From positions 17,770-56,448 of the forward strand of contig WVWV01000131.1 in NCBI GenBank assembly GCA_011773845.1: DNA of 38,679 nucleotides. The letters are read 5' to 3'. The notes beneath the pieces were generated by a model. That model was not told where the DNA came from, searched no databases, and worked only from the letters and a program-made list of their open reading frames with translations. Numbering within the stretch: the stretch's first letter is position 1; every line of letters begins with the position of its first letter. Source of the DNA: Lysobacterales bacterium (GTDB lineage Bacteria; Pseudomonadota; Gammaproteobacteria; Xanthomonadales; SZUA-36). A program made the translations under genes and the position numbers. Below, piece after piece: positions 8,282 through 17,170 of the stretch.

Positions 8282-8300
8282 CGCGTTTGAGGGGGCGCGT

Positions 8301-13200: not shown

Positions 13201-14115
<915 letters not shown>

Positions 14116-14144
14116 GGGCAGCCCGGCCACGGCGCACCCGGCGC

Positions 14145-14174
14145 AAAAAAAACCCCGGAAGCGAACTTCCGGGG
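14145..14174 (-). terminator. Intrinsic terminator downstream of polA
   Basis: On the minus strand a perfect 9-bp stem CCCCGGAAG/CTTCCGGGG (14174-14153) with a TTCG tetraloop is followed by eight T (14152-14145). It is the strongest intrinsic terminator in the window. It ends polA transcripts or the candidate small RNA, 172 bp past the polA stop. In the plus direction the stem lacks a U-tail, so it would not terminate hemF efficiently. Confidence 0.88.
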
Positions 14175-14270
14175 CGAATCAGGATTCGGTAATAAAGGGG
14201 GGACTGACCGAATCCGTCGTTCGGCCCGTCCAGGGAGGGGTACGGGCCTCGCTGAATGACTCAGCGTAAC
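14145..14270 (-). ncRNA. Candidate small RNA downstream of polA, sX13/Spot 42 position
   Basis: The 230 bp gap between hemF and polA contains four hairpins in series on the polA strand. H1 is CGCTGA/TCAGCG (14266-14250). H2 has stem GGCCCGT/ACGGGCC (14248-14223) and loop ACCCCTCCCTGG. H3 has stem GGATTCGGT/ACCGAATCC (14215-14182) and loop CAGTCCCCCCTTTATT. H4 has stem CCCCGGAAG/CTTCCGGGG with loop TTCG (14174-14153), followed by eight T. H2 and H3 therefore present C-rich, anti-Shine-Dalgarno-like loops, and H4 with its U-tail is a typical Hfq-RNA 3' end. From memory, Spot 42 (enterics), ErsA (Pseudomonas) and sX13 (Xanthomonas, about 115 nt, C-rich loops) lie next to polA. The 5' end is a guess, as I find no strong -10/-35 pair. 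It could instead be only the polA 3' UTR. Confidence 0.6.
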
Positions 14271-14345
14271 TTTGAGACAATTTTCAGCGCCGGGAGTTCA
14301 GCCGGGTTGCCGGCGGATGCGCGCTGCAGGCGGGCAGGCGCCCTG

Positions 14346-17036
14346 CTAGTGGGCGCTGTCCCAATCGGCTCCGCTGCCGGCCTCCACCACCAGCGGCACC
14401 TCGAGCCTGGCGGCCTTCGCCATGCGTTGCACGACGCCCTCGCTCACCGCTTCCAGCTCCTCGCGTGGCACTTCGAGCACCAGTTCATCGTGCACCTGCA
14501 TGACCAGGTGCGCTGCGGGATGCGCCTGCGTCAGCCACCGGTCCACCTCCAGCATGGCCTGTTTGATGATGTCGGCCGCCGTTCCCTGCATGGGCGCATT
14601 GATGGCGGCGCGTTCCGCGGCCTGGCGGCGTTGCAGGTTGCCGGCGTGAATGTCCGGCAGGTAGAGCCGCCGGCCCCTCAGGGTCTCCACGAAACCCTGG
14701 TCGCGGGCTTGCTGCCGGGTGCGTTCCATGAACTCGGCCACGCCGGGATAACGCTCGAAATAGGTGTCGATATAGGCCTGCGCTTCAGCCCGGCCGATAT
14801 CCAGCTGGCGTGACAGGCCGAACGCGGACATGCCGTACATCAGGCCGAAATTGATGGCCTTGGCGGCGCGGCGTTGATCGGCGGAGACCTCGTCGTACGG
14901 CGTTCCGAACACCTCTCCGGCGGTGGCGCGGTGAATGTCGACGCCCTGCTGAAACGCTTCCAGCAGGCCCGGGTCGCCGGAAAAATGGGCCATGATGCGC
15001 AATTCGATCTGCGAGTAGTCGCAGGCCAGGATGCGCTGCCCGCGCGGCGCGATGAAGGCCTTGCGGATGCGGCGCCCCTGGGGGGTCCGGATGGGGATGT
15101 TCTGCAGGTTGGGGTTGGCCGATGACAGGCGGCCGGTGGCGGCAACCGCCTGATGATAGGAGGTGTGCACGCGGCCGGTCTCCGGGTTGATCTGCTCCGG
15201 CAGGCGGTCCGTGTAAGTCGACTTCAGCTTGGAGAGCGAGCGGTATTCGAGGATCAGCTGCGGCAGTTCGTACTCGCCGGCCAGCTCCTGCAGTACATCT
15301 TCCGCGGTCGAAGCCTGGCCCTTGGGGGTCTTGCGCAGCACCGGCAGCTCCAGCTTGTCGAACAGGATGTCCTGCAACTGCTTGGGCGAGCCGAGGTTGA
15401 ACGCCTGTCCGGCCGCCTCGTGCGCACGGTGCTCGAGGTCCGCCATCTGGGCCGCCAGCTCGCGGCCTTGGGCGGCAAGCAGCTCGCCGTCGATCAGGAC
15501 CCCGCGCTGCTCCATCCGCGCCAGCACCGGTATCAGGGGCACCTCCAGTTCCCTCAGCAGGCTCGCCAGCGTGGGGTTCTCCTGCAGGCGGGGCCAGAGA
15601 TGCTCGTGCAGCTGCAAGGTGATGTCGGCGTCTTCGGCCGCGTAATGCCCGGCGGTTTCCACCTCGACCTGGCTGAACGGGATCTGCTTGGCGCCCTTGC
15701 CGGCGATGTCCTCGTAGTGGGTCGTCTGCCGGCCGAGGTACTTCAGCGCCAGCGAATCCATGTCGTGCCGGCTGCCGGTGCTGTTCAGCACATAGGATTC
15801 GAGCATGGTATCGAAGGCCACCCCGCCGATGGTCAGGCCGTAGCGGGACAGCACGTTCATGTCGTATTTGATGTGCTGCCCGACCTTCGCGGGGTGCTCC
15901 GCTTCCAGCAGGCTGCGCAGGGCTGCCAGCACCTCGTTGCGCGGCAACTGCGCGGGCGCGCCCGGATAGTCATGGGCCAGGGGCACGTAGGCCGCCTCCC
16001 CGGCGTGCGTGGCGAAGCTCAGGCCCACCAGGTCCGCACGCATGGGGTCGAGGTCCGAGGTCTCGGTATCGAAGGCGAACAGATCGGACGCCCCCAGGCG
16101 CTCGATCCAGCGTGCCAGTTCCGATGCATCGGTCACCAGCTGATAGTCGGCGGCGCCCGCGACCGGGTCCTCGGCGCCCAATTCCTGTAGCCAGCTGCTG
16201 AACTCATAGCGCTCGAGGAACGCGCGCAATGCGGATTCATCGACGGCCTCGCGGCGCAGCTCGCCCGGCGAGGTCTCCAGCTCGACATCGTGCCGGATGC
16301 GCGCCAGCTCGCGGGACAGCGGCAGCTTCGCCAGCGCGGCGCGCAGGTTCTCGCCGATCTTGCCGCTGATGTCGTCGGCCTGCGCCATCACCGTATCCAG
16401 ATCGCCATGCTGCTGCAGCCACCTGGAGGCGGTCTTCGGTCCGCACTTCTCCACGCCCGGGATGTTGTCCGACTTGTCGCCGGTGAGCGCCAGGTAGTCC
16501 ACGATCTGCTCCGGTCGCACGCCGAACTTGTGCTCCACCGCCTCGGCATCCAGGGTGGTGTCGGTCATGGTGTTGACGAGCGTGGTGTGGGGGCTGACCA
16601 GTTGCGCCAGGTCCTTGTCGCCGGTGGAGATGACGACATCCATGCCCGCCGCCTCGGCGCGTGCGGCCAGCGTGCCGATCACGTCATCGGCCTCCACGCC
16701 GGGAACCTGCAGCAGCGGCAGGCCGAGAATGCCCACCAGTTCCAGGATTGCTTCCACCTGGCGGCGCAGTTCCTCCGGCATGGGTGGCCGGTGGGCCTTG
16801 TATTCGGGGTACATGCGGTGGCGGAACGTGGGCCCCGGGGCATCGAACACCACCGCGATGTGCTCGGGCTGCGCCTCGTTGAGCAGGCGACGCAGCATGT
16901 TGGCCACGCCCAGCAACGCGCCGGTCGGCTCGCCTGCGGAATTGGTCAGGTTGGGCAGTGCGTGGAAGGCCCGGTACAGATAGGAGGACCCGTCGATCAG
17001 GTAGATCGGGGAACGGCTTGCGTGCGGGTCATTCAT
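14346..17036 (-). CDS. polA: DNA polymerase I
   Basis: Pol I does Okazaki fragment maturation and repair synthesis. The ATG at 17036 gives 896 residues. The 5' nuclease domain (about 1-290) begins with PIYLIDGSSYLYRAFHALPN and has VEADDVIGTLAARA, ISTGDKDLAQLV and GDKSDNIPGVEKCGPKTA. The 3'-5' proofreading domain keeps its acidic motif (FAFDTETSDLDP), unlike some Pol I proteins. Polymerase motifs are A DYSQIELRIMAHFSGDP, B RRAAKAINFGLMYGMSAFGL and C QVHDELVLEV. It is divergent from the DUF2782 gene over a 134 bp gap with two palindromes. Downstream lie the candidate small RNA and a terminator. engB, often adjacent to polA, is 3.5 kb away. Confidence 0.98.
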   Translation of the reverse strand: MNDPHASRSPIYLIDGSSYLYRAFHALPNLTNSAGEPTGALLGVANMLRRLLNEAQPEHIAVVFDAPGPTFRHRMYPEYKAHRPPMPEELRRQVEAILELVGILGLPLLQVPGVEADDVIGTLAARAEAAGMDVVISTGDKDLAQLVSPHTTLVNTMTDTTLDAEAVEHKFGVRPEQIVDYLALTGDKSDNIPGVEKCGPKTASRWLQQHGDLDTVMAQADDISGKIGENLRAALAKLPLSRELARIRHDVELETSPGELRREAVDESALRAFLERYEFSSWLQELGAEDPVAGAADYQLVTDASELARWIERLGASDLFAFDTETSDLDPMRADLVGLSFATHAGEAAYVPLAHDYPGAPAQLPRNEVLAALRSLLEAEHPAKVGQHIKYDMNVLSRYGLTIGGVAFDTMLESYVLNSTGSRHDMDSLALKYLGRQTTHYEDIAGKGAKQIPFSQVEVETAGHYAAEDADITLQLHEHLWPRLQENPTLASLLRELEVPLIPVLARMEQRGVLIDGELLAAQGRELAAQMADLEHRAHEAAGQAFNLGSPKQLQDILFDKLELPVLRKTPKGQASTAEDVLQELAGEYELPQLILEYRSLSKLKSTYTDRLPEQINPETGRVHTSYHQAVAATGRLSSANPNLQNIPIRTPQGRRIRKAFIAPRGQRILACDYSQIELRIMAHFSGDPGLLEAFQQGVDIHRATAGEVFGTPYDEVSADQRRAAKAINFGLMYGMSAFGLSRQLDIGRAEAQAYIDTYFERYPGVAEFMERTRQQARDQGFVETLRGRRLYLPDIHAGNLQRRQAAERAAINAPMQGTAADIIKQAMLEVDRWLTQAHPAAHLVMQVHDELVLEVPREELEAVSEGVVQRMAKAARLEVPLVVEAGSGADWDSAH

Positions 17037-17071
17037 GCCATGCGTGGTCCGAAATCGGGTTCGCCGGTCTG

Positions 17072-17116
17072 GTATGCTGAGCATACTCAAAGCCATGACC
17101 ATGATACAGGTCATGG
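17072..17116. promoter_or_regulatory. Two palindromes in the polA/DUF2782 divergent promoter region
   Basis: The 134 bp gap between divergent polA and the DUF2782 gene holds two perfect inverted repeats. The first is GTATGC-TGA-GCATAC (17072-17086). The second is CCATGACC (17093-17100), an 8-nt spacer, and GGTCATGG (17109-17116). Both look like dimeric regulator sites placed to act on either gene. The regulator is not identifiable from the sequence. Confidence 0.45.
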
Positions 17117-17170
17117 GTGTTGCGGAATCGCTGTGGAATTCTGGTGATGTGTGCACGGAGAGCGCGAGAC

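Follow-up and report, generated by a model that had tools for sequence, protein, structure and literature searches.

Does the gap downstream of polA in the genome of this uncultured Lysobacterales bacterium hold a small-RNA gene in its own right, and is that gene related to the regulatory RNAs already known from the polA locus? One of these, sX13, a virulence RNA of Xanthomonas, was described as confined to Xanthomonadaceae, and the authors raised the question of whether similarly acting sRNAs are encoded beside polA in other bacteria (PMC3771888). Spot 42 of Enterobacterales and Vibrionaceae is likewise encoded next to polA, requires Hfq, and concerns carbon metabolism (PMC3771888). The reading that best accounts for the results as a whole, with a probability of roughly 0.72 drawn from sequence analysis, is that the gap carries a small-RNA gene which is a sister of sX13, belongs to a class-wide family at polA-engB, and would act in trans as a repressor induced by envelope stress. 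The window referred to below is the whole stretch of DNA that was analyzed (38,679 nt).

Architecture of the Predicted RNA

The features of the locus are as follows.

13201..14115, plus strand: hemF (coproporphyrinogen III oxidase), the convergent neighbor (Pfam Coprogen_oxidas, 447 bits)
14346..17156, minus strand: polA, the upstream neighbor on the same strand (Pfam DNA_pol_A, 538 bits)
14145..14266, minus strand: predicted sRNA of about 122 nt, its predicted 5' end taken from the promoter (+/- 3 nt) and its predicted 3' end from the terminator
14250..14266, minus strand: hairpin H1, CGCTGA-GTCAT-TCAGCG, variable in sequence among relatives and with a loop that is not C-rich
14223..14248, minus strand: hairpin H2, seven perfect pairs and the C-rich loop ACCCCTCCCTGG at 14230-14241
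14182..14215, minus strand: hairpin H3, nine perfect pairs and the C-rich loop CAGTCCCCCCTTTATT at 14191-14206
14145..14174, minus strand: intrinsic terminator with nine perfect pairs, a TTCG loop and eight T

Read directly, the sequence places the start of the predicted RNA 79 nt past the polA stop codon. The four hairpins, the C-rich loops on H2 and H3 and the terminator had all been described in the sequence-only reading, and they were confirmed both by this direct read and by folding; the segment 14145-14290 of the minus strand folds at -62.1 kcal/mol compared to -41.6 +/- 4.0 kcal/mol in 200 shuffles (z = -5.1), none of which was equally low. Within the H2 loop, two inner C-G pairs are possible, leaving a seven-nucleotide CCTCCCT apex. 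A terminator scan returned a single site, on the strand of the sRNA, and an Rfam scan of the whole window at the gathering threshold gave no match.

The Pfam matches also bear out the identity of the two neighbors. In the gap itself (14116-14345), hemF is convergent to polA and occupies the place that is taken by engB in many other gammaproteobacteria that bear the RNA. The grouping of polA, the RNA and hemF is kept at loci L002, L003, L004, L006, L202, L204 and L206.

Conservation and Covariation

When 61 related genomes were searched at the DNA level, homologues appeared in several genera. Among polA-downstream regions across the order, the same architecture was present in the family of the window organism (f1), in Wenzhouxiangellaceae (f9) and in other families. 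Since MAFFT misaligned the hairpins in the distant set A2, the alignment A1 and the model-fitted alignment A3 were used instead. In A1 (n = 11), the core of the H2 loop, CTCCCT, is identical in all eleven sequences and the H2 stem is changed on both sides.

In the model alignment of 60 homologues, 96% of cells are paired, a percentage that is inflated by the fitting of the alignment to the structure; weight is placed on the number of types of compensatory pair and on the conserved loops. Changes on both sides occur in 24 of the 26 pairs, so the compensatory stem changes around constant C-rich loops that the earlier reading had proposed to look for in relatives are present. They extend to 7/7 pairs of H2, where 97.5% of cells are paired, and to 9/9 modeled pairs of H3, the loop of which holds three C positions that are 100% conserved in the 60 sequences. 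The covariation score of 0.638 compares to 0.21 in shuffled alignments and 0.03-0.11 when the pairing partners are slid. The covariation, together with the model matches described below, supports the earlier proposal of a small-RNA gene beside polA with C-rich loops as its conserved part. From these sequence patterns, 14145-14266 on the minus strand is almost certainly a stand-alone small-RNA gene.

Relationship to sX13

Two models with disjoint seeds were compared. R1 was seeded with f1 and f9 sequences only, excluding Xanthomonadaceae (f2) and a further family, f12, while R2 was seeded with f12 and Xanthomonadaceae sequences only. R1 scores the window RNA, one of its own seeds, at 94.2 bits; its scores rise to 61 bits at f12 loci, and it detects the sX13 loci of Xanthomonadaceae at 22-31 bits, at the same coordinates as the Rfam sX13 model RF02232. 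In other classes, R1 gives background scores of up to 29 bits, which overlap those of the sX13 loci; on the Xanthomonadaceae side, the link therefore depends on genomic position and R2. In the opposite direction, R2, which is independent of the window, gives the window RNA a score of 35.0 bits (E 1.7e-6). This match is conservative since the automatic structure of R2 lacks H2. With detection in both directions, homology to sX13 is well supported.

Applied to the RNAs downstream of polA, RF02232 itself gave 75-124 bits in Xanthomonadaceae and 40-55 bits in f12, where some scores exceed the cut-off of 50. Dokdonella fugitiva (Rhodanobacteraceae) is also above the cut-off with 50.8 bits, and L003, a close relative of the window, scores 35.1 bits against the same cut-off. 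Searched genome-wide at E <= 1, RF02232 had matches in 87 of the 200 genomes from the order; in one f1 genome, G035, the match (E 0.007) falls exactly at the candidate downstream of polA.

The window RNA and sX13 have in common the location downstream of polA, the order of the hairpins with the terminator hairpin last, a length of about 115-122 nt, C-rich loops on two internal hairpins, and mutual detection by the models. They differ in that sX13 has three C-rich apical loops (4C, 4C, 5C) whereas the window RNA has two, its terminator loop being TTCG. Family f1 lacks the C-rich third loop that f9, f12 and Xanthomonadaceae have. The earlier suggestion of an sX13-like RNA outside Xanthomonadaceae therefore stands as kinship, on the evidence of R1 and R2; strict membership of the sX13 family is unsupported because RF02232 fails to match the window RNA at E <= 10 and the third C-rich loop is absent. 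The window RNA is very probably a divergent sister of sX13.

Distribution and Comparison with Other RNAs

R1 was built from Xanthomonadales RNA sequences alone and is blind to neighboring genes. Over 274 genomes sampled across the class, matches at E <= 1e-4 were found in 86. The best matches lie within 1.5 kb downstream of polA in 34 of the 58 genomes where both the match and polA could be placed, 32 of these 34 being on the polA strand, and polA, engB or both adjoin 17 of the 19 top-scoring loci of the class-wide set.

The arrangement varies in places. Downstream of polA, the RNA occurs in three to four tandem copies in Salinisphaera shabanensis L161 (2627-3174, plus strand) and in a relative, L216 (G372:C33, 1499-2249, minus strand), each copy having a sigma-E-like promoter and a terminator of its own; in L216, engB lies beyond them. 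The remaining R1 matches in the genome of the window organism (G000) that were inspected, L208 and below, have hairpins and terminators with no C-rich loops like those of H2 and H3; they look like chance matches and were set aside. At L368 (G037:C22:263789-263877), two hairpins with C-rich loops (CCCCTCCCTCC and GCTCCCTCCCGC) follow directly on a coding frame with a phasin-like end, and similar short matches occur in other Xanthomonadaceae. These are possibly a separate C-rich RNA derived from a 3' untranslated region.

In Rfam, the best match to the window RNA is anti-hemB (RF02837, Burkholderia RNA 7) at 33.0 bits against a cut-off of 49.5, with the CCTCCCTG loop and the terminator aligned; the anti-hemB model has 81 positions and the window RNA about 122 nt. 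Locus L228 (G358:C11, 1520-1625, plus strand), which adjoins engB, reaches 51.7 bits and is above the Burkholderia anti-hemB cut-off. This sequence match suggests that anti-hemB is a member of the RNA family found at polA-engB. Spot 42 (RF00021) gave 20.9 bits against a cut-off of 80.

ErsA of Pseudomonas is a sigma22-dependent RNA encoded at polA-engB, and for at least one of its targets it relies on a U-rich region that is unstructured (PMC8575079). It shares the polA-engB locus and has a C-rich terminator loop, where the window RNA has TTCG. The ErsA model (Pseudomon-1, RF01719) did not match the window RNA at E <= 10, and the comparison of ErsA with R1 yields only 16-20 bits.

Likeness extends to another class as well. 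The alpha-r14 and cuckoo RNAs of Alphaproteobacteria carry CCUCC-type anti-Shine-Dalgarno loops on successive hairpins, as the window RNA does, and the alpha-r14 model (RF02344) scores the window RNA at 28.2 bits against a cut-off of 58.8. Anti-Shine-Dalgarno loops could have evolved independently, as they may have in cuckoo/alpha-r14, leaving the window RNA and sX13 non-homologous. C-rich loops are known in the unrelated Staphylococcus aureus RNAIII and in a Helicobacter pylori RNA (PMC3771888), and the weak RF02344 matches to the group range over 28-50 bits. Such convergence is nonetheless very unlikely given the shared locus, the identical order of hairpins, the graded intermediates through f12, and the mutual detection by models made from disjoint families. 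Common descent with sX13 is preferred.

Predicted Promoter and Independence from polA

Two elements upstream of H1 resemble a promoter of the sigma-E (RpoE/AlgU) type, TGAACT-N17-TCTCA. This promoter, like the class-wide family, is an addition to the sequence-only reading.

14295..14300, minus strand: -35 element TGAACT, of the sigma-E type
14273..14277, minus strand: -10 element TCTCA of the same promoter

Homologues have a conserved element 5' of hairpin 1 that reads GGAACTT, TGAACT or GAAACT, followed after 15-18 nt by TCNNA. A fixed (loose) form of the motif was present in 49 of 66 homologue upstream regions, whereas shuffled sequences gave 1.2 on average and never more than 5. Where the match was strict, the interval between the end of the -10 element and the first position matched by the model (hairpin 1) was 1-8 nt in most homologues. 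By sequence, a promoter of the sigma-E/sigma22 type is also common to the window RNA and ErsA, the element being present at ErsA in the named Pseudomonas genomes examined.

The window organism encodes RpoE (323 bits, well above the model cut-off). The element GGAACTT-N16-TCAGA (GGAACTTGGCCGGCCCGGGGCAGTCAGA, L348) precedes the matched frame by about 226 nt, and similar elements precede rpoE in three relatives (G000, G010, G020 and G001 in all), pointing to autoregulation of rpoE.

For the window RNA, sigma-E control is probable from these motifs. A related but different account is that the RNA is real and akin to sX13 while its promoter is a housekeeping one and its expression constitutive, as has been reported for sX13 in Xanthomonas (PMC3771888). 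The -35 element of the window, TGAACT, is weaker than GGAACTT, from which it departs. The fixed promoter pattern was found in 0/13 upstream regions of Xanthomonadaceae, unlike the window RNA, and this result is consistent with a constitutive sX13. For the window RNA itself, a constitutive promoter is unlikely: a scan upstream of the sRNA found no sigma-70-like promoter, the sigma-E-type element is strongly enriched in f1, f9 and the class-wide set, and the same element lies upstream of rpoE.

A promoter of its own also bears on another explanation of the gap, in which the segment is only a terminator region, either the 3' untranslated end of polA or a barrier between the convergent polA and hemF genes, with no function in trans. 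The segment does sit between convergent genes and does end in a strong terminator. This explanation is highly improbable, however, when set against the conserved promoter, against two extra hairpins with invariant C-rich loops that termination does not need, and against the Salinisphaera tandem copies with their separate promoters and terminators. Furthermore, the RNA is downstream of polA but on the opposite strand in genera g8 and g11, and it is found away from polA in several f9 genomes. The reading as a stand-alone gene under probable sigma-E control is retained in what follows.

Proposed Mode of Action

Under the preferred reading of an envelope-stress-induced repressor, envelope stress would free RpoE, which would transcribe the RNA from its dedicated promoter as far as its terminator. 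The CCCCUCCCUGG and GUCCCCCC loops would then base-pair with ribosome-binding sites rich in G (GGGAGG, AGGGGG) so that the translation of a set of mRNAs would be blocked. By analogy with known RNAs, repression through loops and G-rich sites is fairly likely. Repression by sX13 depends on its C-rich motifs as well as on G-rich motifs in the target mRNAs, and sX13 is reported to act without Hfq (PMC3771888); ErsA represses oprD and algC (PMC5819304, PMC8575079). The genome of the window organism encodes Hfq, but given this report on sX13 the earlier assignment of the hairpins to the architecture of Hfq-dependent RNAs is left unsupported.

Candidate targets were sought at several levels. A search of four genomes for CCAGGGAG-N-ATG found no target common to all. 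The hfq gene, which is a target of sX13, has no 4G motif at its start region in G000. A LysM/BON-like protein with CCAGGGAG at its ribosome-binding site in L258 (G020) and L296 (G001) was dropped as a conserved target, since the search for an orthologue in G000 and G013 found none. Across 639 predicted genes (about 0.8 Mb of G000), defined by a home-made gene caller and a signal-peptide rule, exported proteins paired no better with H2 or H3 than other genes did (p 0.93 and 0.89).

Within the genome of the window organism, a pilO-like gene at L377:10478 (plus strand) has the ribosome-binding site CAGGGAGGGG, which is perfectly complementary to the H2 loop over 10 nt. An hflC-like gene at L410:19266 (minus strand) has GGGAGGGG; both names were read by eye from the protein start. 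The two sites are leads only, since chance gives a few such matches in a G-rich genome. In the window, the sequence-only reading had offered the GAGGGG upstream of dprA at 8289 as an example of a complementary site; the motif is present, though on its own it is no proof of pairing.

That no target set stood out would also fit a sponge, in which the C-rich loops would serve to sequester another RNA or an RNA-binding protein and not to pair with ribosome-binding sites. The requirement of sX13 repression for its own C-rich motifs and for the G-rich motifs of mRNAs (PMC3771888) argues against a sponge, and so does the make-up of the loops, which do not contain repeated GGA boxes; a CsrA sponge is thus unlikely. 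Sponge activity of any kind is considered improbable, and action on ribosome-binding sites remains the favored mode for the RNA.

Implications for the polA-engB Locus

Because relatives of the window RNA are found at the same spot in many gammaproteobacteria, regulatory RNAs that were named separately may share one origin. It may be proposed, tentatively and at somewhat less than even odds, that a single sigma-E-driven ancestor gave rise to sX13, ErsA, anti-hemB and the window RNA, and possibly to Spot 42 as well. This ancestor would have had C-rich loops and lain at the gammaproteobacterial polA-engB locus, to be retained, tandemly duplicated, moved or switched to another promoter as lineages diverged. 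Its founding function would have been the control of envelope stress through G-rich ribosome-binding sites. In the literature searched, with most subscription journals outside its reach, no paper links sX13 to sigma-E or unites these RNAs as one family.

To the question of whether sX13-like sRNAs are encoded at the polA locus elsewhere, the window RNA and its relatives give, at the level of sequence, an affirmative answer across Gammaproteobacteria. The common sigma-E-type promoter suggests a hypothesis about the conditions under which the RNA is produced, and it would tie the separately named RNAs to one locus.
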